Shown here in pieces: positions 16,003 to 59,645 of a DNA stretch of 64,000 nt (position 1 is the first letter of the stretch; every line of letters begins with the position of its first letter). The stretch is from positions 166,254-230,253 of the IMG/VR virus record IMGVR_UViG_3300032770_000002; one strand, 5' to 3'. Below the pieces are notes generated by a model. It ran no database searches. It had not been told where the DNA came from and saw nothing but the letters and a program-made list of their open reading frames with translations. A program made the position numbers and the translations under genes. This DNA is from a virus.

Positions 16003-16006
16003 ATTT

Positions 16007-17143
16007 ATGAGTGAAGAGAACCAACAGGTGCCGGAATTTGACGTTCTAACTCCAGACATTCCACTGCCGCAAGTCGTGGCGAGGCAGGAAATTGCGGATG
16101 AACGGAAGGGAGCGTTTCGATTCAGCTTTATCGGGTCTGGCCAGGGTGGCGGGAGAATTGCGGCGACATTCCGCGCCCTGGGCTACAAGCGCGTTTGCGC
16201 GATCAACACGGCGCGTCAGGACCTGGCGTCGCTCCCAGCCGACGTTAAGAAACTCGTTATCGGCGATGGAGAAGGAGGTGCTGGCAAAGACCCAGCCGTG
16301 GCGAAGGCAGCGTTTGATAAAAACGCTGAAAATGTCCTAGACCTGATGCGGGCGTCATTTGGCCAAGTGTATGACCGAACAATCATCTGTGTTGGGGCCG
16401 GCGGTGGAACTGGCGCTGGAACGGTGATCGGCCTTGTCGACAAAGCGCGTGAGCTTCAGGTTGCCAGCAAGTGTCCGACTGACAAGGTCGGCGTCATCGT
16501 TGCCCTGCCCAAGGTGACCGAAGGCCGGCGTCCAAGCATCAACGCTCACACCGTCTTGTTATCATTGGTCGCCTACGTTGAACAGGGCTTTGTCTCACCG
16601 CTTATCGTTCTTGACAACGAGCGAATGAGCTCACTCTATCCTGGGCTCGCGATCGATCCATTCTGGGACACGGCCAATCAAAGCGTCTGTCGGCTGTTTG
16701 ACCTCTTCAACATGATCTGCGTTCAAAATTCGACATACACCGCGTTCGACCCGGCTGATTACAAGTCGATCCTCGACTCAGGCCTGATCGTCTTTGGGGC
16801 CACGCCCGTCGCCAACTGGTCGGAGGCCGGCCAAATCAGCTCCGCACTGCGAGACAACTTGAAGAAAAACATTCTTGCAGGAGGTGTCAACCTGTCAACT
16901 GGAACGGTCGCCGCGGCAATCGTTATTGCTGGAAAGAGCGTCTTAAGCCAAGTGCCGCACGAGCACCTCGACCAGGCCTTCGATCAATTGACAAGGTTGT
17001 TGAAAACAAACAGCATGGTGCACCGTGGCATCTACAGCGGAAACAAGGACTCCATGGCCATTTACACCGCAATTGGCGGCCTGGCCGCACCGACTGAGAA
17101 GCTGGACGAGCTGGCCAAAATCGGCGGGATAAGCGGTAAATAA
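16007..17143 (+). CDS. FtsZ/tubulin-superfamily GTPase
   Basis: 378 residues from ATG 16007. The nucleotide site is built by FIGSGQGGGR (41-50), the tubulin signature GAGGGTGAGT (130-139) and INTARQDL. FDPADYKSILDSG later matches the T7 loop region whose acidic residues trigger GTP hydrolysis in the next subunit. Should polymerise into filaments. Phage tubulins (PhuZ, TubZ types) centre or rotate the replicating phage nucleus or segregate plasmids; this one is closer by eye to FtsZ in the G-box. An N-terminal tail of about 36 residues precedes the GTPase domain. A terminator follows. Confidence 0.88.
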   Translation: MSEENQQVPEFDVLTPDIPLPQVVARQEIADERKGAFRFSFIGSGQGGGRIAATFRALGYKRVCAINTARQDLASLPADVKKLVIGDGEGGAGKDPAVAKAAFDKNAENVLDLMRASFGQVYDRTIICVGAGGGTGAGTVIGLVDKARELQVASKCPTDKVGVIVALPKVTEGRRPSINAHTVLLSLVAYVEQGFVSPLIVLDNERMSSLYPGLAIDPFWDTANQSVCRLFDLFNMICVQNSTYTAFDPADYKSILDSGLIVFGATPVANWSEAGQISSALRDNLKKNILAGGVNLSTGTVAAAIVIAGKSVLSQVPHEHLDQAFDQLTRLLKTNSMVHRGIYSGNKDSMAIYTAIGGLAAPTEKLDELAKIGGISGK

Positions 17144-18321: not shown

Positions 18322-21135
18322 ATGAATGAGCCAATGCCAACACTGAATGAGCGCGTTGAGATCTTAGATGACCTACCAAAACCGATAATTGACGACGCTT
18401 CTGCTGCACCTGAACCAGCTCGCCTGACGCGAGTCTTTTCAAAGTCAGGAATTTGCCCATTTGACGACGTCACGTGGATCAAGCGAGACGTCGACATCAC
18501 CGATGACAAGGGTAAGGTCGTCTTCACGCAGAAGGGCGTCGAGACTCCAGAATTTTGGTCCGACCTGGCTGTCAAGATCGTCGCTTCGAAGTATTTTTGG
18601 GGCGAAAAGAACACCGACCAGCGTGAACACTCCGTGCGCCAGTTGATTCATCGCGTGTGTGACACCATTGCGACGTGGGCCGTTGAAGGACGATACGTTC
18701 ACCCTGACGACGAGACGCTCTTCTACAACGAACTTTGCTGGCTTTGCCTGCATCAACACGCGTCTTTTAATTCGCCCGTTTGGTTTAACGTTGGGCTGTT
18801 CCACCAATATGAAGCCGGGCGCGGCAGTGAAGGCGGGTGGGCTTGGGACCAAGACCTCGGCGAAGCTGTGAGGGTCAGGACGATGTATGAGAAGCCACAG
18901 TGCTCGGCTTGCTTCATCGTGTCCGTCGCTGACAACATGGAGGCACTCCTTGACTTGGCCAAGACTGAGGCGATGCTCTTCAAGTTTGGAAGCGGAACTG
19001 GGACGGACCTGACGCCCATTCGTTCATTTCGTGAGAAACTCTCCGGCGGTGGGTCGCCGTCAGGCCCGATGAGTTTTTTGCGCGTCTACGACCAGGTTGC
19101 TGGCATCGTCAAGTCAGGCGGCCGAACTCGTCGTGCGGCGAAGATGAACACCATCCGTGACTGGCACCCTGACATCGAGGAGTTCATTAACGCGAAGCCA
19201 GTTGAGGAACGAAAAGCGCGGGCCCTAATCGAGTCAGGCTATGATGGCTCCATTAACGGTGACGCCTACTCGAGCGTGATGTATCAGAATGAGAACCTTT
19301 CTGTTCGAGTCAGCGACCAGTTCATGAAGGCAGCCACGAATGGCGATGGAACGTGGTGGACAAAAGCGGTCACGAGTGGAGACCGGGTTGAGAAGAAAGA
19401 CGCCAAGGACTTGCTGCACAAGATGGCCGAAGCAGCTTGGTTCTGTGGTGACCCAGGCGTGCAGTTTGACGGCGTCATCCAGCGTTACCACACGTGTGCT
19501 GGAACGGAGCCGATTCACAGCACAAACCCATGTGCTGAATATGTCTTCATCAACAACACGTCGTGCAACCTCGCCTCAATTAACCTCGTCAAGTTCATGG
19601 AAGGCGAGGTGTTCAACGTCGAGCGGTTCAAAGCCGCGGTGCGGCTCATCTTTACGGCCCAAGAGATCTTGTTTGACAACTCGAGCTATCCAACCAAGAC
19701 GATTGCCGAGAACTCGCACATCTTCAGGACTGTAGGGCTTGGCTTTGCGAACCTTGGCTCGCTGTTGATGGGCCTTGGCATTCCATATAACTCTGACCAA
19801 GGCCGTAGCATTGCCGCTTCGATTACGGCCATCATGACGGGTGAAGCTTACGCCACGTCGGCTGGAATGGCCAAGACGCTGGGACCGTTTCCGGGGTTCT
19901 ATGACGCGCGCTGTTCGCACGTCAAGCACCCGGTCAAGGCGAACAATGTTGAGTCGATGCGCGACGTCTTAAACCTCCACGCCGCACACGCGAGCAAGCT
20001 CAAGACTCCAGGGCACCGCTATCTCGATGCCGCCGCAAACGAGTGTTGGCTGCGGGCGATTGGACTGTTCAACTGCCACGGTGTGCGCAACGCCCAGGCA
20101 ACGGTCATTGCGCCAACTGGAACGATCGCATTCATGATGGACTGCGACACGACCGGGATAGAGCCAGAGCTTAGCTTGGTCAAGGTTAAGTCGCTCATCG
20201 GTGGCGGGTCCTTGACGATCGTCAATCGCTCCATCGGTCGGGTGCTTCGCCAGCTCGGCTACAGTGAGCCTGAAATTGATGCCGCGATCAAACACGTGGA
20301 GAAATATGGCCACCTTGAGGCCATCAGCGAGGACATCAAGTCGCCGCTCAGGATTGACGACCACCACGACGTCTTTGACACGTCACTGCCGGCCGGGCCG
20401 AGCAAGCGCTCCATCCCATACATGGCCCACGTCCAGATGATGGCTGCAGTTCAGCCGTTCATCTCTGGGGCGATTTCAAAGACGATCAACATGCCAGAAA
20501 GCTCCACGGTCGAAGACGTGAAGCAGGCTTACGTGGAAGCGTGGAAGTCTGGTCTGAAGTGTGTGGCCATCTACCGTGATGGCTCTAAACGAGCCCAGCC
20601 ATTAAACGTCAAAAAGTTTGGTCAAGACAAAGCAGCGGACCCGGCGTTAAATGGCCACGGTGTTTATCTCCCAAATCGACACCGGCTCCCTGACACCCGG
20701 AAGGCCGTGACGCACAAGTTCAGCGTTGGTGGCCATGAGGGTTACCTGACTGTCGGCCTCTTTGAAAACGACATGCCAGGTGAGCTGTTCATCACGATGG
20801 CCAAGGAGGGTTCGACGGTAGGCGGCCTGATGGACACGATTGGCACGCTGACAAGTTTGGCGCTGCAGTATGGCGTGCCACTCGAAGCTTTAATCCGCAA
20901 GTTTCGGTCAACTCACTTCGAGCCATCTGGCATTACGACAAATCCAAAAATCCGGATGTCGGCCTCGATCATCGACTACATATTCCACTGGATGGCCCTT
21001 GAATTTGACCACGATGACGAAGTTTCCAGCGTCAGTGACGAGGTAAAGACGTGCCCACATTGCGGCCACGTGGCGCAGCGTAGTGGGACGTGTTACACTT
21101 GCACGAATTGCGGAAGCAGTCTCGGTTGCAGTTGA
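18322..21135 (+). CDS. nrdJ: Adenosylcobalamin-dependent (class II) ribonucleotide reductase
   Basis: 937 residues. Makes deoxynucleotides from ribonucleotides using vitamin B12, needing no oxygen. Diagnostic parts: CSACFIVSVADNM, KFGSGTGTDLTPIR, the active-site NPCAEY with NTSCNLASINL, PTGTIAFMMDCDTTGIEP, and a C-terminal zinc-ribbon-like CPHCG ... CYTCTNCGSSLGCS typical of long NrdJ proteins. No intein or frameshift is seen. No beta subunit is needed. The gene anchors the nucleotide-metabolism block. There is no room for a cobalamin riboswitch in the 23-nt gap upstream. Confidence 0.95.
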   Translation: MNEPMPTLNERVEILDDLPKPIIDDASAAPEPARLTRVFSKSGICPFDDVTWIKRDVDITDDKGKVVFTQKGVETPEFWSDLAVKIVASKYFWGEKNTDQREHSVRQLIHRVCDTIATWAVEGRYVHPDDETLFYNELCWLCLHQHASFNSPVWFNVGLFHQYEAGRGSEGGWAWDQDLGEAVRVRTMYEKPQCSACFIVSVADNMEALLDLAKTEAMLFKFGSGTGTDLTPIRSFREKLSGGGSPSGPMSFLRVYDQVAGIVKSGGRTRRAAKMNTIRDWHPDIEEFINAKPVEERKARALIESGYDGSINGDAYSSVMYQNENLSVRVSDQFMKAATNGDGTWWTKAVTSGDRVEKKDAKDLLHKMAEAAWFCGDPGVQFDGVIQRYHTCAGTEPIHSTNPCAEYVFINNTSCNLASINLVKFMEGEVFNVERFKAAVRLIFTAQEILFDNSSYPTKTIAENSHIFRTVGLGFANLGSLLMGLGIPYNSDQGRSIAASITAIMTGEAYATSAGMAKTLGPFPGFYDARCSHVKHPVKANNVESMRDVLNLHAAHASKLKTPGHRYLDAAANECWLRAIGLFNCHGVRNAQATVIAPTGTIAFMMDCDTTGIEPELSLVKVKSLIGGGSLTIVNRSIGRVLRQLGYSEPEIDAAIKHVEKYGHLEAISEDIKSPLRIDDHHDVFDTSLPAGPSKRSIPYMAHVQMMAAVQPFISGAISKTINMPESSTVEDVKQAYVEAWKSGLKCVAIYRDGSKRAQPLNVKKFGQDKAADPALNGHGVYLPNRHRLPDTRKAVTHKFSVGGHEGYLTVGLFENDMPGELFITMAKEGSTVGGLMDTIGTLTSLALQYGVPLEALIRKFRSTHFEPSGITTNPKIRMSASIIDYIFHWMALEFDHDDEVSSVSDEVKTCPHCGHVAQRSGTCYTCTNCGSSLGCS

Positions 21136-21487: not shown

Positions 21488-21772
21488 GTGAAGACGCTCA
21501 ATTTGCAAGTCGGTGCGATGTGCGGCATGCCAAGCCAGACGTGCCTCATGTCCAAGAAAAATCGTGAAGCTCTTCAACTTGACGTCAACGGCCTGGTCGT
21601 TGTGCGGTCCAATGACCAAGACACCTCGGTGGTTCGACGCATCCTTAAGGCTCCAAACATCCCGCAAAAGGACGCCTTCGTGTTCTTGTCACCTGACGAC
21701 CTAAACTTGCTCAATGTCAACATTGCAGACAACGTCGAGCTCAGCCAAGACACCGAGGGAGTGGAGACTTAG
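21488..21772 (+). CDS. Hypothetical protein, double-psi beta-barrel-like
   Basis: 94 residues from GTG 21488, chosen because it sits 7 nt after the -10. After a Cys-containing N-terminus (GAMCGMPSQTCLM) the pattern VNGLVVVRSNDQDTSVVRRIL ... DAFVFLSPDDLNLLNV resembles Cdc48-N/double-psi barrel sequences. It overlaps the next gene by 59 nt, perhaps translationally coupled. The fold is a guess by pattern. Confidence 0.55.
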   Translation: MKTLNLQVGAMCGMPSQTCLMSKKNREALQLDVNGLVVVRSNDQDTSVVRRILKAPNIPQKDAFVFLSPDDLNLLNVNIADNVELSQDTEGVET

Positions 21773-22544
21773 CGACTTTCTTTTAAACGAAACCGAAGTG
21801 GCCTATCTGACGTGTTTGGCTAACGTCATGGACAATGGAAAACCGACCGGTCCAAGGGGCCAGCAAACGCGTGAAGTCTTAAACGCGTCATTCAAAATCA
21901 GGCACCCATCTTCAGCCCCAATTCGAACGTGTGACCTAGAACGGAACAAGGTCATTGCGGAGTATACCCACAAGGAGATGGAGCTTTATCTTAGCGGTTC
22001 GAATAGCGTCAGTGACTTTGCAAAGGCAAGCCAATTCTGGAAGAAAATTGCCAACCCAGATGGGACCATCAATTCGGCCTACGGTTATTTGATTTGGCAC
22101 GAGAAAAGCTGTGGTGACCCAACAATGGAGGTCCCACATTTTGAACCAGGACGGATGAATGGAAGTTTGGCCATGCGGACTCCGTGGGAGTGGGCCCGCA
22201 ATTCCATGCTTCAAGATAAGGACACCAGACAAGCATTCCTTCGGTTTAGCCTGCCACGTCACCAGTGGGTCGGCAACCGCGACCAAGTCTGCACGATGCA
22301 CGGTCACTTTGTCATCCGCGACGACAAGCTGAACTTCTCCATCGTGATGCGGTCAAATGATTGTTTTAAGGGCCTCGTCTATGACCTTCCGTTTTTCATT
22401 AAGCTCATGGAATTGATGGCCGACGAGCTGAAGCCGACTTATCCAAATCTCCAAGTTGGCGAGTATTTTCACCTCGCCCACAGTCTCCACATCTACGAGT
22501 CAGACATCCCAAAGATCTTGAAGATGCTAGGCAGTTCTGCTTAG
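21714..22544 (+). CDS. Thymidylate-synthase-fold dNMP hydroxymethylase (dCMP type likely)
   Basis: 276 residues. ELYLSGSNSVSDF and INSAYGYLIW are the TS N-terminal folate/active-site region. The catalytic cysteine is C193 in QVCTMHGHF, followed by MRSND (212-216). Where dUMP-specific thymidylate synthases have Asn (E. coli N177, GLPFN) this protein has Asp224 (KGLVYD). T4 dCMP hydroxymethylase also has MRSND and Asp at this place, and also MCT after its own catalytic Cys region. So the likely product is 5-hydroxymethyl-dCMP, made with methylene-tetrahydrofolate. A plain thymidylate synthase is the alternative. Confidence 0.75.
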   Translation: MSTLQTTSSSAKTPREWRLSDFLLNETEVAYLTCLANVMDNGKPTGPRGQQTREVLNASFKIRHPSSAPIRTCDLERNKVIAEYTHKEMELYLSGSNSVSDFAKASQFWKKIANPDGTINSAYGYLIWHEKSCGDPTMEVPHFEPGRMNGSLAMRTPWEWARNSMLQDKDTRQAFLRFSLPRHQWVGNRDQVCTMHGHFVIRDDKLNFSIVMRSNDCFKGLVYDLPFFIKLMELMADELKPTYPNLQVGEYFHLAHSLHIYESDIPKILKMLGSSA

Positions 22545-23092: not shown

Positions 23093-23281
23093 ATGAGTGA
23101 TGCACTTCGAGACAAAAATGGACGTGCCATCGGTTACGTGACCGAGGACAGCAGCCGCAAAACGGTCCGTGACGTCAACGGCCGGCCTCAAGGCAGCTAC
23201 GACTCACGAGACAACGCAACTCGCGATAAAAATGGGCGCGTGACCGGATACGGTGACCAGACATTCGGCTTTCTTCGATAA
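23093..23281 (+). CDS. Small D-x-NGR repeat protein
   Basis: 62 residues from ATG 23093. Three repeats are visible: LRDKNGRAIGYV, VRDVNGRPQGSY and TRDKNGRVTGYG, each probably a beta hairpin with an NGR turn. Its stop codon overlaps the start of amidoligase 2 (TAATG). As the leader gene of an amidoligase operon it could be a modified peptide substrate; this is inference. Similar D-x-NGR repeats occur in other bacterial and phage proteins of unknown role. Confidence 0.75.
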   Translation: MSDALRDKNGRAIGYVTEDSSRKTVRDVNGRPQGSYDSRDNATRDKNGRVTGYGDQTFGFLR

Positions 23282-24531
23282 TGAACTTGACGACATCAGT
23301 TGGGTTTGAACTCGAGTTTAGCGGGTCAAATCTTGACCGTGTTGAACGCGAGCTTCGCTCTAAGGGGATCGACTGTCACAATTACGGCCGGTGGCGCCAC
23401 TCTGACGGCGACCTGTGGGACCTTAAGACCGACTCGTCATGTGGGTTTGAAGCCGTCAGCCCGATATTGCAGACCTATGAGGAGCTGGTTGATGCTGCTG
23501 GTGTCGGCGCCTTGATCGCCAATGTCGGTGGAACTGCGACAGAGAGGTGCGGGCTTCACGTTCACATCGGCGGCGGTGACTTCAGTTCGCTTCAACTTGA
23601 AAACGTCTTTCGATTTTTCACACGGTATGAGTTCGCCTTTTTTCTCATGGTGCCTCCGGCTAGGCGGACAAACATCTACTGCAAGCGGCTTTCACCAGCT
23701 ACGATCAACTCAATCAAGCGGGCGTCATTTCAGCGCAATGACTGGTGGATTCACACGTGGACTGACAAGAATGTCTGGCTGAATGGGCGCCGTTGGCCGG
23801 ACATCAGGACGCTTGAGTTTCGCATCATGCCCGGGTCACTCAGCCCATACTTCATCATTGGCTACGTGACGTTTCTTCAGTGCGTGATCAACACGGTCAA
23901 GGACCGAACGATTAACTGGGGCATGGCTCGCAGCAAGGATGACCGCTCGCTCTTCCAGACGATGCTTGGTCAGTCCGGATTTTATGGCCCATGGATTAGT
24001 GAAGACCTTAAGGAACTCTACCTCACCGGGCGCAAGTGGGCGATCGAGCGGTATAAGCTGGCGAACGAGTTAGTGTCGGGTTTCTTTGAAATGACGCGGG
24101 TCGTTCCTAAAATCCCGTCGGTCGACTGCCGGCCAAGTTGGGACCGTGGAGACACATCGCTCCCACAACGGACACGCCGTGTGAGGCGACGAGTGCCGGA
24201 AGTAGAGGTGCGAAGCCCCGCGTCATCTCCGCCTCCGCCATCGACGGCTTATTCACCGATTCAGCAGCCTCAGTTTATAAGCTCAACGCCTGTGGTGACG
24301 TCATTTGCTACTCAGACGACGCAGACGATGCCAGAAATTTCAATCAGCAACGCTACCACTACTTCCGGCGATTGGATTGTCTCATGGGGACAAGGAGGAA
24401 CGAGCCACTTGAACATGGGCCAAGCTTCTAGCTCAGCGGAAACAACTCCAACCGCAGAACGCAGTGAAACGACAGCAACTCCGCCGACGCCGTCGTCCGA
24501 ATCTACACCGTCTGAATCTCAGGGCTCGTAG
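23281..24531 (+). CDS. Amidoligase-family protein 2 (COOH-NH2 ligase)
   Basis: 416 residues. Signatures: VGFELEFSG (7-15), TDSSCGFEAVSP (50-61), CGLHVHIGG (90-98) and TLEFRIMPGS. They are collinear with the proteins at 12681 and 57534. After the catalytic domain (about 270 residues) comes a long low-complexity tail rich in Pro, Ser and Thr (PASSPPPPSTAYSP ... TTPTAERSETTATPPTP). It probably forms an amide bond with ATP; the substrate is unknown. Confidence 0.85.
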   Translation: MNLTTSVGFELEFSGSNLDRVERELRSKGIDCHNYGRWRHSDGDLWDLKTDSSCGFEAVSPILQTYEELVDAAGVGALIANVGGTATERCGLHVHIGGGDFSSLQLENVFRFFTRYEFAFFLMVPPARRTNIYCKRLSPATINSIKRASFQRNDWWIHTWTDKNVWLNGRRWPDIRTLEFRIMPGSLSPYFIIGYVTFLQCVINTVKDRTINWGMARSKDDRSLFQTMLGQSGFYGPWISEDLKELYLTGRKWAIERYKLANELVSGFFEMTRVVPKIPSVDCRPSWDRGDTSLPQRTRRVRRRVPEVEVRSPASSPPPPSTAYSPIQQPQFISSTPVVTSFATQTTQTMPEISISNATTTSGDWIVSWGQGGTSHLNMGQASSSAETTPTAERSETTATPPTPSSESTPSESQGS

Positions 24532-43930: not shown

Positions 43931-46170
43931 TGTTCGACGCAACCATCATCCTCAACCGTGACGACATTCTCGTCTGGGCCAGTGCCGGAACGCTGACAAG
44001 CGACCTTGACCAGCAGTCTGGCATCGTCTTTGACTGGTCCACGGCCGCTCGTCGTGACGCCCAGTTGTCACGCCGGGACATTGCACTGGCCAACTCGATT
44101 GCTGATGTGGCCGCGACCGTCGCGACTGTCTGGGGTGGCACCGTGGCGTATTCAGCGCCGCCTGAGCCCCAGGGTGTCGACATTCCAGGCGAGATGGCAC
44201 CGATCACCAACGTGGCAGGAACGGTTGCTCACGTCAAGCCAAGCTCAGTTCCTGGGGACTCCTACACGACCGACCAAGACCTTCTGCAGCGTGACTTGGT
44301 CATCCTTGAAGGGCTTCGCCAGGTCACGAAGATGGTGCCTGACGCTGTCATCAGCGGGACATTGCCGGGTCCAGTGGAACTGTCCGTCGCCTGGTCGCTG
44401 GCTGAAGGGGCGCCAACTGGGGTTTCGGTCAGTCCGATCCTTCCGATGGCCATTGACACGTTTAAGTCGCCTGACGAAGACCTGGCCAACAACGACAACC
44501 AGCTTGCACTGAACGTCGCCTCGCTGTCTCAGTTGTTGAGCAACCCGTTTTTGATGGCCAGTCGGCTGATTGTTCAATCTTCAGACGGGTCGCATGAGGC
44601 CGAAAGTTACGTCCTCATCTCTGAGGATTCGAACACGAAGGTGTGGCAAGCTGAGCCTGGGATTGAAGGGCGGATGCGTGTCACCTATGACAAGCTGCGT
44701 CACACGCTGGCCTGGACTGACGAAACGGAGTCTCCTGCGTTGCCCTACCCACAACCTTATGCTGTGGGCGGCACGATTTCCGGGCCAATTGAGGTCTTGC
44801 CGGCGCTCGACGAGGCGAAGGACGTTGAATTTTGGCGTAAGAAGGCCACGCAGGTCAACTTGCTTTCCGTCAAGGAAGTTCAAGCCGCCCACGTCACCGA
44901 CCCTGGACTGACGGCGATGGGCGACGCTTATGAAAGTCACGGAGCGGCCGTCTTTGTCCAAGCTGGGACATTGACGACAATCGTGGCTGGAACACTCGAC
45001 CCTGGGACGACGCGAGTCGCGCTGCTTGCCGCGTCGGTTCCTGAAGTGGTTGTTGACGGCGCTAAGGGCGTCGGTGGGACACCAACGGGTTTTGCAACGG
45101 ACTTTCCAGCGTCAGGCGGCACAATCCTGTGGGGCATCCAGTTGACTCCAGGGCTGTGGTCAATGACGGTTTATTTTACGAACGTGCTCGGAACGGCGCC
45201 GACGTCGTGGCCATTTTTGGTCCAACTTGGGACGAATGTCGTGTCGGCCTTGGGGCTGCGCTTCACAAAGGACAACGGTGAAGTCGACTCGGCCAACTAT
45301 GCCATCAACGCTCCGGCCGGTCCAGTCACTCTGTCGCTGGCGTGGGGACCGCCAGACGCGTCAAACCAACTTCGCATTGAACGCATTGTCTTTACGCGGC
45401 AAAGCGCTGAACAGACCTATTCATTGTCCGCCTTTCTAGGTTCAACTGGGCCGGCGACCGTCGAGGTGGACATGCTTCCGTATAGGTTGGACGTTCTTTC
45501 GTTTGCCTTTGAAACGACGGAGCAGCTGATTGACCCGGTCTTGACGCTCCTGTGGGAGGACACGGTCATCGTGACTCCAAACGCGACGGACGCGGACACG
45601 ACGCCACTCAGCATCTTTGCGGTCGACGCGATGAACTACCACTCGGTTGAGGTGACAAAGAATGCTGATGGGTTTGAGGCGTGGAAGAGCGAGATGGTCG
45701 AGCGCGCGGCTGAATCGGTCGTTGACGCGTTTAACGCCAGCATCCTAGTCGATCCTGGTTTTGACCCGACTGTTCTCGTGTATGGAACAATCGGTGGCAC
45801 TGTCGTAACTCAGCGGTATTGGACGCTCGACTCCACAAACGCGTGGCTCAACTACCTGCGTGAAAGCGAAGCCAGGTTTGACCTCGCCCTGCGTGAAGGC
45901 GGACCGGGCGACATTGGTCGGCCGGCCATCATTCCAATGGGACTCAAGTATGACTTCGACCAAAACGTGTTTCCACGCAGTGTCACGCTTGAGGAAGAGG
46001 TCATCAACGACACGGTCCCACTCCAAGTGACTGCACGCGTGGCCGGCACGCTGTGCACGCCAATCCTTGCGGCGTATCAGCCATGGATGGCTCGAATCTC
46101 ACTGCCGGTCTTCGTCGAAGATTTTTGGGCCGAAAGCCGAGTTGGTGGGACGGTGACCACAGTCGACTAG
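43930..46170 (+). CDS. Large virion structural protein
   Basis: 746 residues, beta-rich and low in Cys, starting MFDATIILNRDDILVW. N-terminal ~60 residues include a helix (RRDAQLSRRDIALANSIADVAAT); the centre has carbohydrate-binding-like stretches (TPGLWSMTVYFTNVL). Likely a baseplate, tail-tip or adsorption protein given its position after LysM-like and paired virion genes. No named family recognised. Overlaps the convergent helicase gene by 4 nt. Confidence 0.65.
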   Translation: MFDATIILNRDDILVWASAGTLTSDLDQQSGIVFDWSTAARRDAQLSRRDIALANSIADVAATVATVWGGTVAYSAPPEPQGVDIPGEMAPITNVAGTVAHVKPSSVPGDSYTTDQDLLQRDLVILEGLRQVTKMVPDAVISGTLPGPVELSVAWSLAEGAPTGVSVSPILPMAIDTFKSPDEDLANNDNQLALNVASLSQLLSNPFLMASRLIVQSSDGSHEAESYVLISEDSNTKVWQAEPGIEGRMRVTYDKLRHTLAWTDETESPALPYPQPYAVGGTISGPIEVLPALDEAKDVEFWRKKATQVNLLSVKEVQAAHVTDPGLTAMGDAYESHGAAVFVQAGTLTTIVAGTLDPGTTRVALLAASVPEVVVDGAKGVGGTPTGFATDFPASGGTILWGIQLTPGLWSMTVYFTNVLGTAPTSWPFLVQLGTNVVSALGLRFTKDNGEVDSANYAINAPAGPVTLSLAWGPPDASNQLRIERIVFTRQSAEQTYSLSAFLGSTGPATVEVDMLPYRLDVLSFAFETTEQLIDPVLTLLWEDTVIVTPNATDADTTPLSIFAVDAMNYHSVEVTKNADGFEAWKSEMVERAAESVVDAFNASILVDPGFDPTVLVYGTIGGTVVTQRYWTLDSTNAWLNYLRESEARFDLALREGGPGDIGRPAIIPMGLKYDFDQNVFPRSVTLEEEVINDTVPLQVTARVAGTLCTPILAAYQPWMARISLPVFVEDFWAESRVGGTVTTVD

Positions 46171-47738
46171 TGGAGTCTTTGAACGGCCTGTTTCCACCAA
46201 TTCGGGAAGAAACCGGAGTAGCGTCCGTAAATCATCTCAAAGTCAGCGTCTAGGAAGTATGTCACTCCCCAGTCGTCATCAGACCTGACAATTCGCCCGG
46301 ACATCTGGACAATCGTCTTGACCGTTTCAACTTGATACCACTCAGGGTCACGCTGCATCTTTGCGTGGACCTGCCTGTCGCCAAGATTTGGAAATGGAAC
46401 TTTGACAATGACTTGCCACCTGGCTAGGTTTCCCATGAAGTCGAAGCCTTCAGTCATTGATGGGCTGATGATGACTGTCGGGTCTACAGAATTTTTGTGC
46501 AGCTCAAAGGCCGTTTCACGGTCTTCACTGCTTAGCGGCGCGATGATCCTTGCCCTGTGCCTGGTTCGGCCAAGAGCGGTCACAATCTCCTTTTGGATAG
46601 CGTAGCTGTTGGAGTGAATAAGGCCCTTCTCACCCGCGTGCTTGTCAAGAATCATCGTGATAAACTTGATGGCTTTCGGCAGCGTCTGCTCTTGGCAGGC
46701 CTTGCGCATCTGGCCGACATAGGTCAGCATGATGGGTCGCTTGTCTGGGGCGAATGAGCTCGTCAACTTGGCCCACATGACCTTCGCCGGGTCAATGCCG
46801 AGTGACCGGCAGTAGACGGCCTTCTGCCCTGGGAAAGCCGACATGTGAACCTTGACCTTGGCTGAATCGAACAAGAGCGGGGCAAATGGAGCTGCATTCA
46901 GCGGGCGGATAAGCGCTTCGAACGTGCCATCTTCCTGCTCTTGTTGCCAATAGACCCAGTCAGTCGGGTCTTTTTCATAGAGCGTGATGGCCGTCTTAAG
47001 CTTACTGACGTGCTGTGAAATGGCGATGGCCTCACGCGTAAGCTTGTCATCAGCTTGGCCGTCGGACATGATCAGCAGGTTTTCTGAGACCTCAACAAGG
47101 CGTGGCATCAGTTGAAGTTTAATCCAGCTGAGAAACTGGCCAAGGTCAGTCGTTCGAAGGATCTCAATGTCGACGTTCCACTTCTTGAGTTGCTTCGAGT
47201 TGATCGCAAACTCAACGGCGTTGATGATTTGTTTTTCGACGGAGTGGCACTCGTCTAGGACCAAGATCGGCCTTGCGCCAAGCTTGTTGACGTAGAGTCG
47301 TTCCGTCAGGAAGAATGGGTAGTTTGTCACTCCAATCCGCGAACCCATAAAATCAAGCCTGGCCTGAGAGTAGGAGCACGCGCCTTCCTTAAATCGTTCA
47401 CACTTTCGAATGCCACCGAGCGCACAATTTTTATGGCGCTGGCAAGGATACTCGACGGCGGATTTAAGCAAAAAGCACCCCAGTGTCCGGTCAGCGGCCA
47501 GTTCACTTTCAAGCTGGTCTTGGAGCAATTTTTGTGTGACGAGATAGTATCCACTCCCGTGTGAAAGGCAGGCCGTGGCTCCCAACAAACTCTTGCCTGC
47601 CCCAGTTGGCGCCTCAATGACAATGTGTTCGTAACCGCGCCCAATGGCCTCGTCCATAAAGCGCATGGCTTCGACCTGAGACTGCCGCGGAATTTTAAGC
47701 GGAAAGAAGTCGGCCATTTGACGCTTGGTATCGCTCAT
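46167..47738 (-). CDS. DinG/XPD-type superfamily 2 helicase with Fe-S cysteines
   Basis: 523 residues. EAPTGAGKS is Walker A and VLDECHSVEKQI the DECH box (DEAH-type). Between them YPCQRHKNC ... KCERFKEGACSY supplies four cysteines for an iron-sulfur cluster, as in DinG and XPD. Late motifs: MTEGFDF and IVQMSGRIVRSDDD (motif VI). A 5'-3' DNA helicase used in repair, recombination or R-loop removal. Confidence 0.87.
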   Translation of the reverse strand: MSDTKRQMADFFPLKIPRQSQVEAMRFMDEAIGRGYEHIVIEAPTGAGKSLLGATACLSHGSGYYLVTQKLLQDQLESELAADRTLGCFLLKSAVEYPCQRHKNCALGGIRKCERFKEGACSYSQARLDFMGSRIGVTNYPFFLTERLYVNKLGARPILVLDECHSVEKQIINAVEFAINSKQLKKWNVDIEILRTTDLGQFLSWIKLQLMPRLVEVSENLLIMSDGQADDKLTREAIAISQHVSKLKTAITLYEKDPTDWVYWQQEQEDGTFEALIRPLNAAPFAPLLFDSAKVKVHMSAFPGQKAVYCRSLGIDPAKVMWAKLTSSFAPDKRPIMLTYVGQMRKACQEQTLPKAIKFITMILDKHAGEKGLIHSNSYAIQKEIVTALGRTRHRARIIAPLSSEDRETAFELHKNSVDPTVIISPSMTEGFDFMGNLARWQVIVKVPFPNLGDRQVHAKMQRDPEWYQVETVKTIVQMSGRIVRSDDDWGVTYFLDADFEMIYGRYSGFFPNWWKQAVQRLH

Positions 47739-51639: not shown

Positions 51640-54600
51640 TTATTGGTCCTGTCGCTCATCTAGCAACTTGTCCCAATCGATGTCACCTGTCTTAGGAATG
51701 GTGCGCAGGTCGTAGTAGTTCTTGCCGATTTCACCGTCGCCGTCAAATGGCACGATCATCCAACTGAGGTCGACGTCGTCGCCGAACCAGAGCTGCATCA
51801 CCTCTGGCATGTTTTGAAGGACCGACATGACGATCTCATGGATAGTCGGCAACTCTGACCGCCGTCGGAAGTCGATGGCCAAGGAGTCGTGGACGGTTAG
51901 GACTAGCTTCGATTCCAGTTCGGCCTGTCGCATTAGGTCCTCAATGACGCACAGGCAAATCAGCATCATGTCTGAGGCCGTGGCTTGGATGAGGTGATTG
52001 CACCCAGCTCGCAAGGCCTTGTTGACCAGTCCTCGGTCATCGCTGAACACCTCTTCGAAGACTCGAACGCGCCCGAGGATGGAGACGGCCACGCCATATT
52101 CGAGGATGAACTGCTTGTATGCGGCAAGGTAATTTTTCAGCGTTGGATAGCTGTCGAAGAAGGCCTCAAGGAACTCTTCACAGGCCTCGAGCGTGAAGTA
52201 GACAGAGTCAGCCGCGAGCGTGCCTTGCAGGCCATTGGCTCCGCCACCATACCCCGTGAGAAAGTTGATCGTCTTTGAAATTTTACGCTGGATTTTGCAC
52301 TTCTTCGACTCTTCGGTTCGTCCCTGTTGCTGGAGCCACTCGTCAAACTCCTTCGTGCATTCCTCATAGGGTCGGTTGAAGATCTTGCTGTGTGACAGTG
52401 AGTGCAAGTCAATCCCATTCCAGTAAGCGTCGACCATGGCCGAATCGCCACACGCGGCGGCAATGAGGCGCAACTCAATCTGGCTCAGGTCATACGACAT
52501 GATGCCACCGTCTTCGCTGGCCCACCTGGAATTGTAGATGCGCTTGACGAAGGACTTTGTTGGAAGCTGCTGAAGGTTGGGGTCATGCGCGGCCAGCCTC
52601 CCAGAGCGAGTGCCCGGGATGATGAACTGTCCGTGGACACAACCATCAGCCATCAGGTGCGGGTGCTTCTCTCGGTGTTTCTTGTCAAGTCCTTCGGAGA
52701 ACGCATTGCGCATTGGCCTGATGTAGCTCGACCAAGCCTTGAAGAGGCGCCGGTAGTCGAGCATAGGCCTGATTGACTCGTGTTCAGCGGCCAGCGCGTT
52801 CAGCGTGTATTTGTCGACGGCCGCATACTTGAGCAGCTCATCTTTCGGTAACAGGCTAAAGTCAGCGTCGTCACCGTAGAGCTTTCGGCCTCCTTCAGTT
52901 AAGGCCTTGACTGGATACTCGAGGACGTCAAATAACAGTCCTTTGAGGACTTCCTTGTTTTCGAGGTCAAACTCCCACTCCGGGTCGTTGGCTACCTGCA
53001 CGTCACACCAGCTGAGAATGCGTGGGTCGCTTTCACGAATTTTGTGCTTTGCCTCAGCGATTTGGCGTGGAAGAAATGTCTCTTGGTTTTGAAGCTCAGC
53101 GAGGTCGACGTGCATTCCACGGGCCATCATCTTGATGAGCGTGCGTGAGGCCGGCGAGATGACCTTATTGTAGACCGTGTTGCGTGAAATGGGCGTAAAC
53201 CGCCTGAACCGGCCACGGTTGGTCACGTGGGCCAGTGGGATCTGGTAGACAGGCGCCTCCTCAAGCTTATTCTGGAGCGCCCGGTGGCACAGGTGGGTTG
53301 CCTCAACGTCACCCATGACGTAGCACTTAAGGTGCGTGTCCCAATACTCCGTGGGACACCGGGCGTAGTGCCCACCAAAATCTGGGTGCATCTGCTCCTT
53401 GAACAGCTCAATGAGGAGCGTAAAGTCCTCTTCGTAGCCTGCAATGTCCGGCGCGTATGTGTAGGCGAGGAGCTCAAGGCCAAGCGATCCACGTTGCTGG
53501 CGGAGCGTGTAAGCTTCATGCCACGTGTCAAACTTCATGGACGGCGCGATGACGTCAATGCTATCAGGGCCAAGGTCGGCCATCTCGAAAAGGGCGTCAA
53601 AGGTCAGGTTGTGGCCAACGACGTTGGAGACACGAAAAACTTCGAGGACGTAGGGTCGTAGCTCATCGAGGTGGCCAAGAAGCGGGCTTTCAGGGTAGTC
53701 CCACGGAAAGCCAATGGACTGCGGCTGCCCTTGGTCGTCAACCCATCGAAACATCTTGAAGACGACGCCCTGCCGAACGTCAAGAAGTTGTTTCTTGATC
53801 ATCTTCCAACCCCACGGCTTGAGGCCGCTCGTTTCGGTGTCGAACGTCACCTCAGTTCCAGGGTGCTCAATGATCCACATCAATTTCGACTTGATGTGCT
53901 CGACGTCAGTGGAGATGTCATACCAGGGCCGAAAATAGTTCGGTGGTTGGATGCCATTGACGGCCACGGTCATGGCCTTTTTGACGTGAAGCCGCCACCG
54001 GTCAATGACCTGCCTGTTTTGCGTGGCCCAGACGATTCGTGGATTTTGAATCGGAAGGAGCGTCACTCTTTCAGTTGGAATTGGCCCAAAGAGCGGGTGG
54101 CCAGTGATGGTGGAGTGTTCTGGGTCGCGTGGGTCTGGGCGTGGCAGGACATTTTCCTTGTCCGTCAGCCAATCGTCAGGCCAGCCGCGCCACGTCAACA
54201 CGCGGCCACCCCAATCTTGGGCATTTGACTTGTGGCTTAGCAGACCAAGGACAACGCTGCCAATGGGCATGATGACCTTTGGCGTGTGGTCACGCAGCTC
54301 TTGGATGACGTGATTTCTGCACCACCCTCCTTTGGTGCCGAAGTCGGGCCGCTTTCCTATTCGCGCGGAACACCGGGTGATCGGGACCCACCGAATCCGA
54401 CTGAGGTCAAACTTTGTCTCGATGGCCAATTCGGCCATGACCTTGTGGACAAACCCTGACACGCCGTCTTTTCCAAGGTCGCCAGAGTCATCTTCACGGG
54501 CGGACACGCTTTCGTAGATGACGGTGATAAGCGGCTCTTCACTTCCGGCGTAATTGATAAATGGGTTTTTAGCGCCGCTGGTGTGCAGTCCACACTTTGC

Positions 54601-54846
54601 GCAGATGGGTGAGTCCGGCCCTGGAATGAGCAGCGAGCCATTAAGCGGGTTAACTGGGTCAAAGCTTGTAACCTGGTTGCGTTCATCCCCTTGAACTCCG
54701 TGGACCCACTTCAATGTGTCGCGAAAAACTTTGTTGACTGACTTGAGGTCGAGCGGCCGACCATCGTAGTCCTGAAATATGTGGCGCGGCTTCTTCTGAC
54801 GTCGTGGCTGTGGGACGTTAATCAGATCAAGCTGCTTGTTGGACAT
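51640..54846 (-). CDS. Family A DNA polymerase with fused UDG-like and exonuclease domains
   Basis: 1068 residues. N-terminal ~80-260: CAKCGLH, TRCSAR and GGWCRNHV give the four-Cys Fe-S pattern of family 4 UDGs with MPIGSVVLGLL. Middle: FDTETSGLKPW (Exo I), GHNLTFDALF (Exo II), MGDVEATHL (Exo III). C-terminus: MSYDLSQIELRLIA (pol motif A), KISKTINFLTGYG (motif B), VLTVHDSLAIDF (motif C, HDS). It replicates the genome. Its partnership with PurZ recalls the DpoZ-type polymerases of Z-genome phages. Confidence 0.92.
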   Translation of the reverse strand: MSNKQLDLINVPQPRRQKKPRHIFQDYDGRPLDLKSVNKVFRDTLKWVHGVQGDERNQVTSFDPVNPLNGSLLIPGPDSPICAKCGLHTSGAKNPFINYAGSEEPLITVIYESVSAREDDSGDLGKDGVSGFVHKVMAELAIETKFDLSRIRWVPITRCSARIGKRPDFGTKGGWCRNHVIQELRDHTPKVIMPIGSVVLGLLSHKSNAQDWGGRVLTWRGWPDDWLTDKENVLPRPDPRDPEHSTITGHPLFGPIPTERVTLLPIQNPRIVWATQNRQVIDRWRLHVKKAMTVAVNGIQPPNYFRPWYDISTDVEHIKSKLMWIIEHPGTEVTFDTETSGLKPWGWKMIKKQLLDVRQGVVFKMFRWVDDQGQPQSIGFPWDYPESPLLGHLDELRPYVLEVFRVSNVVGHNLTFDALFEMADLGPDSIDVIAPSMKFDTWHEAYTLRQQRGSLGLELLAYTYAPDIAGYEEDFTLLIELFKEQMHPDFGGHYARCPTEYWDTHLKCYVMGDVEATHLCHRALQNKLEEAPVYQIPLAHVTNRGRFRRFTPISRNTVYNKVISPASRTLIKMMARGMHVDLAELQNQETFLPRQIAEAKHKIRESDPRILSWCDVQVANDPEWEFDLENKEVLKGLLFDVLEYPVKALTEGGRKLYGDDADFSLLPKDELLKYAAVDKYTLNALAAEHESIRPMLDYRRLFKAWSSYIRPMRNAFSEGLDKKHREKHPHLMADGCVHGQFIIPGTRSGRLAAHDPNLQQLPTKSFVKRIYNSRWASEDGGIMSYDLSQIELRLIAAACGDSAMVDAYWNGIDLHSLSHSKIFNRPYEECTKEFDEWLQQQGRTEESKKCKIQRKISKTINFLTGYGGGANGLQGTLAADSVYFTLEACEEFLEAFFDSYPTLKNYLAAYKQFILEYGVAVSILGRVRVFEEVFSDDRGLVNKALRAGCNHLIQATASDMMLICLCVIEDLMRQAELESKLVLTVHDSLAIDFRRRSELPTIHEIVMSVLQNMPEVMQLWFGDDVDLSWMIVPFDGDGEIGKNYYDLRTIPKTGDIDWDKLLDERQDQ

Positions 54847-55846: not shown

Positions 55847-57259
55847 ATGCCTGAAGTTTCAGACCAATCCTTTAATTTTTCGCCAGAATTTCAAGACTTA
55901 ATCCTGTCTTGCATTGTCAAGGAACACCAGGAGTTTGGCTTTCTCACGATCAACCTTTCAGCGCGCCACTTTACCGGGTTGCAAGCGTCGGTCATCGCGA
56001 AGGTCATGCTTGAATATATTGGCATCTACACCACGCCGCCGTCTTTTCCGATGCTCTATGAGCTCTCCAGATCGGAGGCCGTCCGCCACGGGATGGACAA
56101 GACCCAGCTCTCGGACTACGTCAAGAAGCTTGAGGACATGGACACGACGCGGCACTGGCGCAAGGTCAAGGACAAGGTGGCCAACTTCATCAAGGAGCGT
56201 GAGATCATCGCGACGCACCGTCGGTCACTTGAGTCCATGCGTGAGGGAACGCCTTTTGACTACGTGACGGAGTTCACCAAGGCTGTCAACGTCTGCAATG
56301 ACTTGAATGAGATGGGGCTTCTGTTCGACCCAACGGACACGGCCAAGACGATCAGGAAGGTGACGTCACGCGGCTACGGCGTCAGGTGCGGGTATCCGCT
56401 GATTGACAACCACTTCCCATGGGGCTTTATGCCAGGTGAGCTCATTGTCCCATTGGCCCCACCCAAGTCCTGCAAAACGACCTTGTGTTTGAATTTTGCA
56501 TTCAACATGGTTTCGCCAGCCGTTGACGTTGACGTGCTCTATTACACCTGCGAGATCAGCCAAGAGATTGCGTTGCTTCGCCAGGCCTGTCGATTGGCCC
56601 GCCTTCCACTGGCGTCAATCTTTCAGAATCCGGACCTTTTCATCGAGCAGTTCAACCAGGCTTTTGCGACAATCGGGTTTCGTTCACGGCTTTTGTTTAA
56701 GGGCTTTGCGTCCAACACGGCCACGATTTCAGACATTCAAAATCACGCGCTGGCCATCAAGGCCATGGGGCTGGAACCGAAGGCCATCTTCATTGACTAT
56801 GCCGAGCGCGTCAAATACTCGAAGCCAGTCGGTGAAGCGAAAGACCACCGGTTGTCGGCTAACATCTTCAGTGAGGCTAGAGCGTTCGGAACAAACCTCG
56901 AGTGCCCAGTCTTCATGCCTGAACGCTGCAACGCGGAGACCGTGTCAAAAGCTGTCCCGAACATGACGTCATTCCAAGGGTCTTTCGAAAAAGGAGGCAT
57001 TGTCGACTACGCGTTTGGAATTTGCATGACGGAGCAGGAGAAGTTGAACAACATCTTTCGCCTGTTCTTTTTCCTGGCCCGCAATCAAAAGTCGATGCAG
57101 TATTTTCGAGGCACGCTTGACCTTGAGACATACCGAATGGAGGTGAATGAGGAGATCGAGTATGCCCCGGATCCTGACGATCATGTGGCCGTTAGAGCGC
57201 GCCAAAGCAGGACGCGGAACAGCGGCGACCACGCTTTGCCAACGGAGCTTCAAGAATGA
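55847..57259 (+). CDS. DnaB-like replicative helicase
   Basis: 470 residues. N-terminal helical region (about 1-170), then a RecA-like ATPase: LAPPKSCKTT (Walker A, 203-212), TCEISQEIALLRQA, IFIDYAERV (Walker B), and GGIVDYAFGICM with an Arg-containing late segment. Pattern fits DnaB/T7 gp4-type helicases with an unusual 'PPKSCKT' P-loop. Unwinds DNA ahead of the polymerase; the neighbouring gene may be its partner. Confidence 0.85.
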   Translation: MPEVSDQSFNFSPEFQDLILSCIVKEHQEFGFLTINLSARHFTGLQASVIAKVMLEYIGIYTTPPSFPMLYELSRSEAVRHGMDKTQLSDYVKKLEDMDTTRHWRKVKDKVANFIKEREIIATHRRSLESMREGTPFDYVTEFTKAVNVCNDLNEMGLLFDPTDTAKTIRKVTSRGYGVRCGYPLIDNHFPWGFMPGELIVPLAPPKSCKTTLCLNFAFNMVSPAVDVDVLYYTCEISQEIALLRQACRLARLPLASIFQNPDLFIEQFNQAFATIGFRSRLLFKGFASNTATISDIQNHALAIKAMGLEPKAIFIDYAERVKYSKPVGEAKDHRLSANIFSEARAFGTNLECPVFMPERCNAETVSKAVPNMTSFQGSFEKGGIVDYAFGICMTEQEKLNNIFRLFFFLARNQKSMQYFRGTLDLETYRMEVNEEIEYAPDPDDHVAVRARQSRTRNSGDHALPTELQE

Positions 57260-57487: not shown

Positions 57488-57520
57488 TTTGTTTACAACT
57501 TCGGTTCGTTGTGGTATATT
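57488..57520 (+). promoter_or_regulatory. Promoter with TTTGTTTACAA element (short leader)
   Basis: -35 TTTACA (57492-57497), spacer 17, TGTGG-extended -10 TATATT (57515-57520). The ATG is 13 nt downstream, so a leader of about 7 nt. Confidence 0.83.
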
Positions 57521-57533
57521 CATCCCAGAGTTT

Positions 57534-58634
57534 ATGCCAAACGTTGATGAGAAACTGACATTCGGGATTGAGTTGGAAGGCGTGCGAGCCTCCTCTGAAT
57601 CGCAGGTCTTGGCCCAAATGTGGAACTTCACAAAGCGTTACGATCACTCCATCACTGACGACCACGGGCAACCGCTTCCTCGGACACTTGAAGAGGGCGG
57701 CGGCTTTGAATACATCACGCCTGTGCTGAGCGTCGATGTTCGCATGACCAACGCCGGTGAGCGATTGGCCATCAACTGGGGCACTTCACTGAATGCCATC
57801 CGCGACCTCTGTTTATGCGTCGCTCACGTCAACAAGTCGTGCGGCGTTCACATTCACCTCGGCCGCCCGGCAAGTGACAGCGTGACCCACTCGAAGTGGG
57901 AGCCAGAGCGAGTTCGGACCATGCTGACAGTCGGCATGCTCCTGGAGCCCAAGATTTTTGACGTCGTTCCTGAAAGCCGCCGTGGAAATCACCACTCGAA
58001 CTTCATTCGTTCACGATACTCCTCTGACGACATCTGCCAATTTTATCCGACTGGAAATGTGGTCGCCAGAAAGTTCGATAATCCCAAGCGGTATTGCTGG
58101 ATGAACCTCATTGAGACTCGGCGAGTGGGCAACGACACGCGTCCAGGGCGTGGTTCATCGACGGCTCTTGGAACGATCGAAATCCGGGCTCTTGGCAACA
58201 CAGCGTCTTACGACTACATCAGCGCTTGGACAGTCCTGTGGATGAAGATTGCAGCTTTCGTGGCCTACTTGCCATCATCGCTGGCCATGATGCGGTGCGT
58301 GTTTTCCGAAGAGCTTGCGTCGGACTTTGCGACACTGGCCAAGCTCAAGTCGACGGTCGACGAGAGCGTGGTGCTGCCGGCTGAACCGCCATCGCCGGCT
58401 CTGCCTCAGTTGACTCCTCAGCCAGCACCGCCGCGGCCACATCGACCGCTTCGTCGCCCGCTGAATGTGCTGGCCGAGCGTGAAGCTCGAAGAGAGCGCG
58501 CTCCACGTGAAGCTCGACAAGCTGGCATCCCGTCGCATGACGCAATTTTACGTGGGGCTGAACGGCTTGCTGAACCACAGACGCCTCAAATCCCGGCTGA
58601 AAATGACGGTCCGGTCGAGGAAAATCGTGACTGA
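57534..58634 (+). CDS. Amidoligase-family protein 3 (COOH-NH2 ligase)
   Basis: 366 residues from ATG 57534. Signatures: FGIELEGVR (10-18), GGFEYITPVL (56-65), CGVHIHLGR (103-111), and TIEIRALGN. Proline/Arg-rich C-terminal tail (PALPQLTPQPAPPRPHRP). Sits one promoter upstream of the class II glutamine amidotransferase gene. Third paralogue in the window. Confidence 0.85.
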   Translation: MPNVDEKLTFGIELEGVRASSESQVLAQMWNFTKRYDHSITDDHGQPLPRTLEEGGGFEYITPVLSVDVRMTNAGERLAINWGTSLNAIRDLCLCVAHVNKSCGVHIHLGRPASDSVTHSKWEPERVRTMLTVGMLLEPKIFDVVPESRRGNHHSNFIRSRYSSDDICQFYPTGNVVARKFDNPKRYCWMNLIETRRVGNDTRPGRGSSTALGTIEIRALGNTASYDYISAWTVLWMKIAAFVAYLPSSLAMMRCVFSEELASDFATLAKLKSTVDESVVLPAEPPSPALPQLTPQPAPPRPHRPLRRPLNVLAEREARRERAPREARQAGIPSHDAILRGAERLAEPQTPQIPAENDGPVEENRD

Positions 58635-58682: not shown

Positions 58683-59645
58683 ATGTGTGCCATCATCTCC
58701 TGGAAAGGAAAACTTCCAAAAGGCCTGCTGACTCAGTTGCTTCTCAAGTCTGAGCGGCGTGGGCGTGACTCGACTGGCGTTGCATTTCGCTTGGCGTCAA
58801 GCACGGTGTCATATCGTCAGGCAGTTCCGGCCAATGAATTTGTCAGCGACCCTGAAAACAACAAGTTTTTGGGTGACGCTCGTCGGGCCATGAGCGGCAT
58901 TGCTCACACTCGTCGCGCCAGTCCTGGCATGCCAATTGACAACAGGAACGCACACCCGTTCCTTTATTGGCGGTATTTCTTTGCGCACAATGGCAAGATC
59001 CAAAACTGGAAGTCGTTGCAACAGCGCTTGATCGACCACTACTCTCAGGTGGCCAATTCCGCGACTGACGATGAGAGCAGGAAAAGCGCCGAGTGGTGTG
59101 TTCACTATTGCCGAAACATTCAGACCGATTCGAAGGTCCTTGGTCCATACATCCACACTGAGAACTTTTCACTGATCGAAGGGTGCATGGCCTTGGTGTG
59201 GCTTAAGGGCGACGAAGCCTTTACGCTGCGCATGGCCAAAGAGGCCACGGCCACGTCAGTCATTTGGCGATACATCGTTCCGCCGAAGGACGAGGAAATT
59301 GAGGACCACATGGTGACGATTGTCGGGTCAACTCACGAGATCATCGATGACTCGCTCAAGTCGCTGTCGAAGGTCATTGAGTATGACCGTGGCTCATTCA
59401 ACGACTTTCCTGAAGGGATCATTTACAAGATCGAGGCCAATGGCCTGAAGGAGCACAAGCGCCTTGACCAAAAGCCCGTCGCAATGGAGGACCAGTTTAC
59501 GTCCGAGGAAGTCAAGGACGAGACGCCCATTCAAGAGAATATCGGGTCGACTCCAGCTACTGGAGAACCTGGCGAGCCGCCGTCACCCAACTTTGAGTCG
59601 GCCCCGGCGCCTGAGTCAGCGACCACGACCACGAATCCTGTCTAA
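58683..59645 (+). CDS. Class II glutamine amidotransferase-like (Ntn hydrolase)
   Basis: 320 residues. MCAIISWKG puts the catalytic Cys at position 2, the defining feature of class II GATases; RRGRDSTGVAF, GIAHTRRASPG and FFAHNGKIQNW supply the usual binding residues. It releases ammonia from glutamine. The synthetase partner is not fused; the amidoligase encoded 49 nt upstream is the best candidate. The C-terminus is a Pro/Thr/Ala-rich tail. Confidence 0.85.
   Translation: MCAIISWKGKLPKGLLTQLLLKSERRGRDSTGVAFRLASSTVSYRQAVPANEFVSDPENNKFLGDARRAMSGIAHTRRASPGMPIDNRNAHPFLYWRYFFAHNGKIQNWKSLQQRLIDHYSQVANSATDDESRKSAEWCVHYCRNIQTDSKVLGPYIHTENFSLIEGCMALVWLKGDEAFTLRMAKEATATSVIWRYIVPPKDEEIEDHMVTIVGSTHEIIDDSLKSLSKVIEYDRGSFNDFPEGIIYKIEANGLKEHKRLDQKPVAMEDQFTSEEVKDETPIQENIGSTPATGEPGEPPSPNFESAPAPESATTTTNPV

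Follow-up and report, generated by a model that had tools for sequence, protein, structure and literature searches.

The final 64,000 bases of IMG/VR virus record IMGVR_UViG_3300032770_000002 (positions 166,254 to 230,253; here called the window) encode a family A DNA polymerase that carries a uracil-DNA glycosylase (UDG)-like domain ahead of its 3'-5' exonuclease and polymerase domains (Table 1). The complete record has a size of 230,253 bases and hence represents a jumbo-phage contig, and the gene encodes the family A polymerase with which this phage replicates, its main DNA-copying enzyme. An earlier note, made from the letters of the sequence, had drawn attention to three cysteine-containing motifs in this open reading frame (ORF), and the translation was as described, with CAKCGLH at residues 82 to 88, TRCSAR at residues 157 to 162 and GGWCRNHV at residues 173 to 180.

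Searches with Pfam detected DNA_pol_A alone in the window protein (expect value [E], 1.5e-55), and PHROGs gave it the label DNA polymerase (phrog_17; E, 3e-97). A whole-protein AlphaFold (AF2) model had a mean predicted local distance difference test (pLDDT) value of 91.1 and a predicted template modeling (pTM) score of 0.88, and its fold matched that of Bst DNA polymerase I, with a TM score of 0.84 of target. The exonuclease and polymerase motifs that had been reported to follow the N-terminal domain were located with all of their catalytic residues. The exonuclease motif residues were D336/E338, N413/D417 and Y509/D513, and the catalytic positions were invariant or almost so over 39 sequences. 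Polymerase motif A contained D786 within SYDLSQ, motif B contained R854, K858, F862 and Y866, and motif C consisted of H986-D987-S988. As the exonuclease residues and motifs A, B and C were all intact and were conserved among the 39 homologues, the protein should, from its residues, be a working polymerase.

Table 1. Features of the polymerase locus and its divergent neighbours, in window coordinates
Feature	Position	Strand	Basis or remark
Family A DNA polymerase, 1,068 amino acids plus stop: UDG-like domain, 3'-5' exonuclease, polymerase	51640..54846	(-)	
UDG-like domain, residues ~79-297	53956..54612	(-)	Hidden Markov model (HMM) match at 79-218, hhalign, domain model, Foldseek
Predicted iron-sulfur (Fe-S) ligand pair C82-x2-C85	54592..54603	(-)	12/12 clade members; conserved at 90% or more in the 39 fused polymerases
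Predicted third Fe-S ligand C159 (TRC)	54370..54372	(-)	Clade and fused-polymerase alignments
Predicted fourth Fe-S ligand C176 (WCR)	54319..54321	(-)	Clade and fused-polymerase alignments
Degenerate motif 1, residues 111-119, YESVSARED (family 4: GEAPGxxED)	54490..54516	(-)	
P155, aligned with the uracil-binding Asn80 in Tth UDGa	54382..54384	(-)	Pro/Ala in 12/12 clade members
N268, aligned with the catalytic His155; motif 2 is QNP, not HPA	54043..54045	(-)	
Clade-specific loop HKSNAQDW, residues 205-212, after strand IMPIG	54211..54234	(-)	
3'-5' exonuclease domain, residues ~332-530, catalytic D336, E338, D417, D513	53257..53853	(-)	
Polymerase domain, residues ~560-1048	51703..53169	(-)	Pfam, motifs
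Divergent neighbour, 320 amino acids	54869..55831	(+)	Homologue beside polymerase in 11/12 clade loci
DnaB-like helicase, next gene of the replication module	55847..57259	(+)	Pfam DnaB_C, E 7e-10; conserved in clade

Fold and ancestry of the N-terminal domain

A scan of IMG/VR with the single window sequence detected no relatives. A first alignment-based scan of this database yielded two full-length relatives, with 48% identity over the best segment and about 50% overall, and a second yielded 12 loci, both earlier contigs among them. The clade, as defined here, comprised 12 distinct members, the window included, on contigs of 17 to 238 kb, and it formed a single group with full support in a tree built from the exonuclease-polymerase regions. 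No cellular relative was detected in a scan of genome_contigs. Inteins were noticed by eye inside the polymerase domains of four members, two each in L101, L102 and L104 and one in L103, at sites in the pre-motif A and motif B regions.

The ancestry of the N-terminal domain was examined by HMM searches, profile comparison and structure prediction. A test HMM derived from eight phage polymerase N termini, from which the window clade was excluded, recovered 11 of the 12 clade members, with E values of 1.1e-5 for the window protein and 2e-13 for L106; the sole miss was L103. Short polymerases without the domain had no match to this phage N-terminus HMM. Alignment of the clade domain with free-standing family 4 UDGs by hhalign gave a probability of 96.8% (E, 2.6e-10), with the cysteines aligned. 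The comparison of an AlphaFold model with family 4 UDG that the earlier note had proposed was performed with a domain-only model (pLDDT, 91.0), and the fold was present: the top Foldseek match in the PDB was Thermus UDGa (1ui0; E, 1.1e-9), the order of matches being Thermus and Thermotoga UDG, followed by UdgX and Sulfolobus UDG, and 1ui1 was matched to the domain model with a TMt of 0.74. HMM, hhalign and Foldseek thus agreed on family 4 UDG, as had been predicted for this region. Comparison at the levels of sequence and predicted structure showed that the N-terminal domain descends from a family 4 UDG and has kept the fold.

The UDG models of Pfam and NCBIfam had no match on the window protein, which scored below the cut-off of the curated family 4 UDG model, and Pfam UDG had no match anywhere in the genome. 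Plain annotation would therefore miss the domain. A direct search of the N-terminal 300 residues against the PDB and phage records gave chance matches only; among these, a match to CcrBL9 was rejected as chance, since the region matched is annotated with small ORFs running on the other strand. The silence of the Pfam and NCBIfam models is what would be expected if the cysteines bound zinc or were a chance likeness in a domain unrelated to UDG. In two clade relatives, however, this domain did have a match to Pfam UDG (E, 1e-4), and the agreement between HMM, hhalign and fold comparison refutes this explanation with respect to the fold, making it extremely improbable overall. The resemblance of the four-cysteine region to UDG is, as judged from these alignments, more than chance.

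Retained cysteines and altered active-site positions

The claim that the cysteine spacing matches that of the Fe-S ligands in family 4 UDGs was confirmed across the clade. Residues C82, C85, C159 and C176 had the family 4 spacing, aligned with the family 4 ligands and were invariant in 12/12 members, and in the alignment of 39 fused polymerases the four positions were at least 90% conserved, which places them with the best-conserved columns in the domain. The four cysteines should hold a 4Fe-4S cluster, which would have a structural role. Both the fold and the four-cysteine ligand set are common to this domain and the family 4 enzyme Thermus UDGa (1ui0), whereas the catalytic Asn and His and the GE[A/G]PG motif of family 4 UDGs are absent from the window clade and the window domain is fused to a polymerase. 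Motif 1 was x[DE][SGAC]V[STGN] across the clade, with x[DE][SG]V[ST]xxED as the consensus and YESVS in the window protein. The position of the motif 2 His was occupied by Ala, Ser, Asn or Val in 11/12 members, and His was present only in L100. In Thermus UDGa, the pocket residues are E41, G42, E47, F54, N80 and H155; an H155S change lowers k2 by more than 3 orders of magnitude, and changes of N80 lower k2/Km by more than 40-fold (PMC5387724). The clade domain has thus lost residues for uracil binding and for glycosidic cleavage.

A free-standing UDG was also encoded in two of the relatives, G003 (the contig of L097) and G012 (the contig of L106). Both of these proteins carried the GEAPG, Asn and HPA/HPS motifs and scored 183 and 196 bits against TIGR00758 (family 4), which has a cut-off of 125. 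These two relatives therefore have their own enzyme for uracil removal, the polymerase domain being a degenerate paralogue. No dUTPase (PF00692) was detected in any clade record. Because the clade has lost Asn80 and His155 and two relatives have a separate canonical UDG, uracil excision is unlikely, and the domain is very probably not a working uracil glycosylase. The idea of a domain that would read bases in the manner of a glycosylase consequently found no support, the residues for holding and releasing uracil being gone. Cross-linking of the UdgX type was also considered and rejected, as the 12 members had no KRRIH R-loop motif with a nucleophilic His between C159 and C176.

On balance, we consider it somewhat more likely than not that the domain is a UDG-derived, Fe-S-stabilised module that is not a uracil glycosylase and that binds DNA in cis in a noncatalytic manner. 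Its most likely grip would be on the single-stranded template or on duplex, keeping the polymerase on DNA. The most conserved new feature of the clade was the HKSNAQ[DE]W loop, which with the RGWPDD that follows it was near-invariant in the clade and absent from other fused polymerases. We presume, taking the Gly-Ser loop in family 1 UNG as a parallel, that this loop could touch the DNA backbone. Several points weigh against this noncatalytic reading. Acidic residues at the positions of Glu41, Glu47 and Asp48 were mostly kept in the clade and, because of this, an altered pocket is conceivable and some such pocket could remain; Asn/Asp was present in the motif 3 region; and the superfamily includes two families, 2 and 6, that are active despite having no motif 2 His (PMC5387724). 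Noncatalytic binding of DNA in cis by the domain is, moreover, a step that we infer, and this counts on the same side.

Fused polymerases in other phages

The statement that UDG fusions occur in some phage polymerases was borne out by SPO1, PaBG and phiLo. Like the window protein, the polymerase of Thermus phage phiLo (PDB 9QHS) is a single chain with a UDG-like domain, an exonuclease and a polymerase; the phage gene and the PDB chain agree over their full lengths, and the structure has been solved and was released in March 2026. The phiLo protein keeps the canonical GEAPG, TN and HPS motifs that are lost in the window clade, and the Foldseek match between the window domain and 9QHS was modest (E, 8e-5). 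Polymerases of Herelleviridae (SPO1 gp31, Bacillus phi18 and Lysinibacillus LysYB1) have the domain order of the window protein, with approximately 25% identity to it, and the Asn is degenerate in these proteins also. A clear Pfam UDG domain was detected at the N termini of the LysYB1, Bacillus phi18 and Streptomyces Zuko polymerases, and the LysYB1 domain matched Thermus UDGa with an E value of 1.4e-27. Several UdgX entries in the PDB bear the title Phage SPO1 DNA polymerase-related protein. A UDG-exonuclease-polymerase fusion was published in 2020 for the PaBG/Lupandier jumbo phage polymerase, which was called an active UDG from homology modelling (PMC7412058) and which we compared with the window clade by description only. 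The fusion itself is thus known, and what is new here is a jumbo-phage clade with a degenerate domain yet strictly kept cysteines, together with the pattern that emerged from a survey of such proteins.

The survey set consisted of 71 fused polymerases, 59 of them from outside the clade and 12 from within it. A domain was scored as intact if the E41/N80/H155 set was kept, with Asp allowed for Glu. This set was kept in 25 of the 59 other fused polymerases, phiLo among them, and at least one residue was lost in the remaining 34. All four cysteines were present in 24/25 intact and 25/34 degenerate polymerases, counts that include some incomplete or badly aligned N termini; with the clade counted, 37/46 degenerate polymerases had all four. 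When the exonuclease-polymerase regions from 60 polymerases were placed on a tree, a quick build with some long branches, the catalytic state switched 9 times, at least 4 of them on well-supported branches. Such changes alone do not give the direction (loss versus gain), and loss is the natural direction because the free-standing family 4 UDGs that were compared all carry the set. In the sequences surveyed, the glycosylase active site appears to have been lost at least several times, with the cysteines mostly staying. The Bacillus SPO1 group (SPO1 and phi18) exhibited the opposite of this pattern and the reverse of the window clade, with the cysteines lost and the motif 2 His kept.

Retention of the full Glu/Asn/His set in 25/59 other fused polymerases, phiLo included, and the published reading of PaBG as an active UDG (PMC7412058) are points in favour of a domain with continuing DNA glycosylase activity and an altered specificity, which would provide the polymerase with built-in base excision. 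The acidic residues that are mostly kept at the positions of Glu41, Glu47 and Asp48 point the same way. With Asn80 and His155 lost in the clade and separate canonical UDGs in two relatives, we nevertheless regard an active glycosylase as very unlikely in the window protein. The presence of the cysteines in 37/46 degenerate polymerases suggests instead that the domain has been retained for something beyond uracil removal. A loose annotation, that of a polymerase with a UDG domain, thereby becomes a testable question. Both intact and degenerate fused domains are present in isolated phages, and their comparison could show what job a glycosylase fold performs on a replicase and could tell whether phage polymerases use this fold for holding template DNA or for inspecting it.

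Modified-base genes and gene neighbourhood

The earlier note had also envisaged a phage with a modified genome, and this was supported by a PurZ-like protein, two thymidylate synthase (TS) homologues of the deoxycytidine monophosphate (dCMP) type and a carbamoyltransferase. The PurZ-like protein (330 amino acids; window 11137-12126, minus strand) scored 143 bits against a PurZ cut-off of 300, with PurA models scoring lower, and carried GGQYGSEGK, which has the Asp-to-Ser change of PurZ. In one study, every phage PurZ sequence had Ser in place of Asp13 (PMC12884076). PurZ-like proteins were also present in clade relatives G006 (with Ser) and G003 (with Leu). Searches for partners of the MazG and HD_3 families found none. 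A Z-genome jumbo phage is possible on this evidence. One TS homologue was located at window 21714-22541 (plus strand) and the second at genome 47542-48510 (minus strand). By eye, against the TS motif, both had Asp at the position of Asn177, as in dCMP hydroxymethylases. A class II ribonucleotide reductase (window 18322-21132, plus strand) adjoined the first TS homologue. A carbamoyltransferase (genome 45854-47542, minus strand) adjoined the second, the pair constituting locus L088:5854-8510, and the pairing of a carbamoyltransferase with a TS homologue has been reported for 5-carbamoyloxymethylcytosine in phage DNA (PMC8670742).

Tuning of nucleotide choice by HDS in motif C and SYDLSQ in motif A, as had been suggested, was not upheld. 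The third residue of motif C was Ser in 24/39 fused polymerases and Glu in 1/39, making HDS ordinary, and Leu after the motif A Asp was the second commonest state (9/39). DpoZ is a phage family A polymerase like that of the window, whose genome has the PurZ-like gene. Membership in DpoZ was rejected, with scores of 38.5 bits versus 500 for NF038380 and 22.5 versus 350 for NF038381 and with the helix O Tyr retained. A change of this Tyr to Phe is common to both DpoZ groups (PMC8599892), and Tyr866, which is kept in the window protein at the DpoZ Phe position, was invariant over the 39 sequences.

The spread of the modification genes in the clade was patchy: TS was found in 1/12 relatives' records, carbamoyltransferase in none and PurZ-like proteins in two, although these records may be fragments. 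In G004, a relative of 199 kb, the domain was present and TS, carbamoyltransferase and PurZ were all absent. As the domain is present in all clade members while these genes are patchy, its general role does not depend on these modifications, and the proposed connection between the domain and a modified genome is a weak link. A connection with cytosine modification as a general rule was rejected on account of large relatives without TS and carbamoyltransferase.

Genes for modified bases bear on another explanation, that of a read-ahead sensor: the domain would capture uracil or a modified base in the template without cleavage and would stall or tune the polymerase. Base reading is a natural function for a pocket derived from UDG, and archaeal family B polymerases stall likewise for uracil. 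Modified-base genes are present in the window phage, and the title of PDB 9QHS describes the phiLo family-A DNA polymerase with modified template. A gene of the TS family, which covers TS and deoxyuridine monophosphate (dUMP) hydroxymethylase genes, was nearby in 26/46 fused IMG/VR loci versus 0/29 domain-less loci (p, 6e-8, with shared descent ignored). Among the fused polymerases, TS was nearby for 20/28 degenerate versus 6/18 intact proteins (p, 0.016, again with shared descent ignored). The uracil-recognising Asn is lost in the whole clade, however, and among clade members the occurrence of the domain does not follow that of TS, carbamoyltransferase or PurZ, G004 being without all three. 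We consider a sensor of this type unlikely. A bolder version is decidedly improbable: the inactivated UDG would have a rebuilt pocket, made up of HKSNAQ[DE]W, the acidic motif 1 and an invariant Gln that precedes the lost His, and would serve as a template-base reader on the replicase, recognising a noncanonical base without cutting it, possibly in 2-aminoadenine or modified-cytosine genomes. Four phage contigs (L057, L077, L080 and L116) were observed to have fused polymerases with intact UDG motifs near queC/queE-type 7-deazaguanine genes.

The polymerase gene lies in a divergent module with the DnaB-like helicase that was conserved in clade loci, and the 320-amino-acid neighbour had no match to a Pfam family. 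This conserved module with the helicase and the 320-amino-acid protein, and the invariant clade-specific motifs HKSNAQ[DE]W and RGWPDD, would fit a domain that is mainly a protein-docking platform, tethering the polymerase to the helicase, the clamp or other replisome parts, with the cluster only keeping the fold. The same domain is found in phages with quite different replisomes, which argues against docking, and we rate this explanation as slightly more doubtful than a sensor.

Scans with Rfam (46 to 60 kb) and for tRNAs were empty. Near the polymerase gene, an XPD/DinG-like helicase was encoded at window 46167-47738 on the minus strand (Helicase_C_2; E, 2e-21), with a four-cysteine cluster typical of Fe-S helicases. 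Elsewhere in the window were an Amidoligase_2 enzyme (23281-24528, plus strand), a by-eye lookalike (57489-58634, plus strand) and an adjacent glutamine amidotransferase (58683-59645, plus strand). An FtsZ/tubulin-like protein, perhaps a phage tubulin, was encoded at 15938-17140 on the plus strand (FtsZ model; E, 4e-13).

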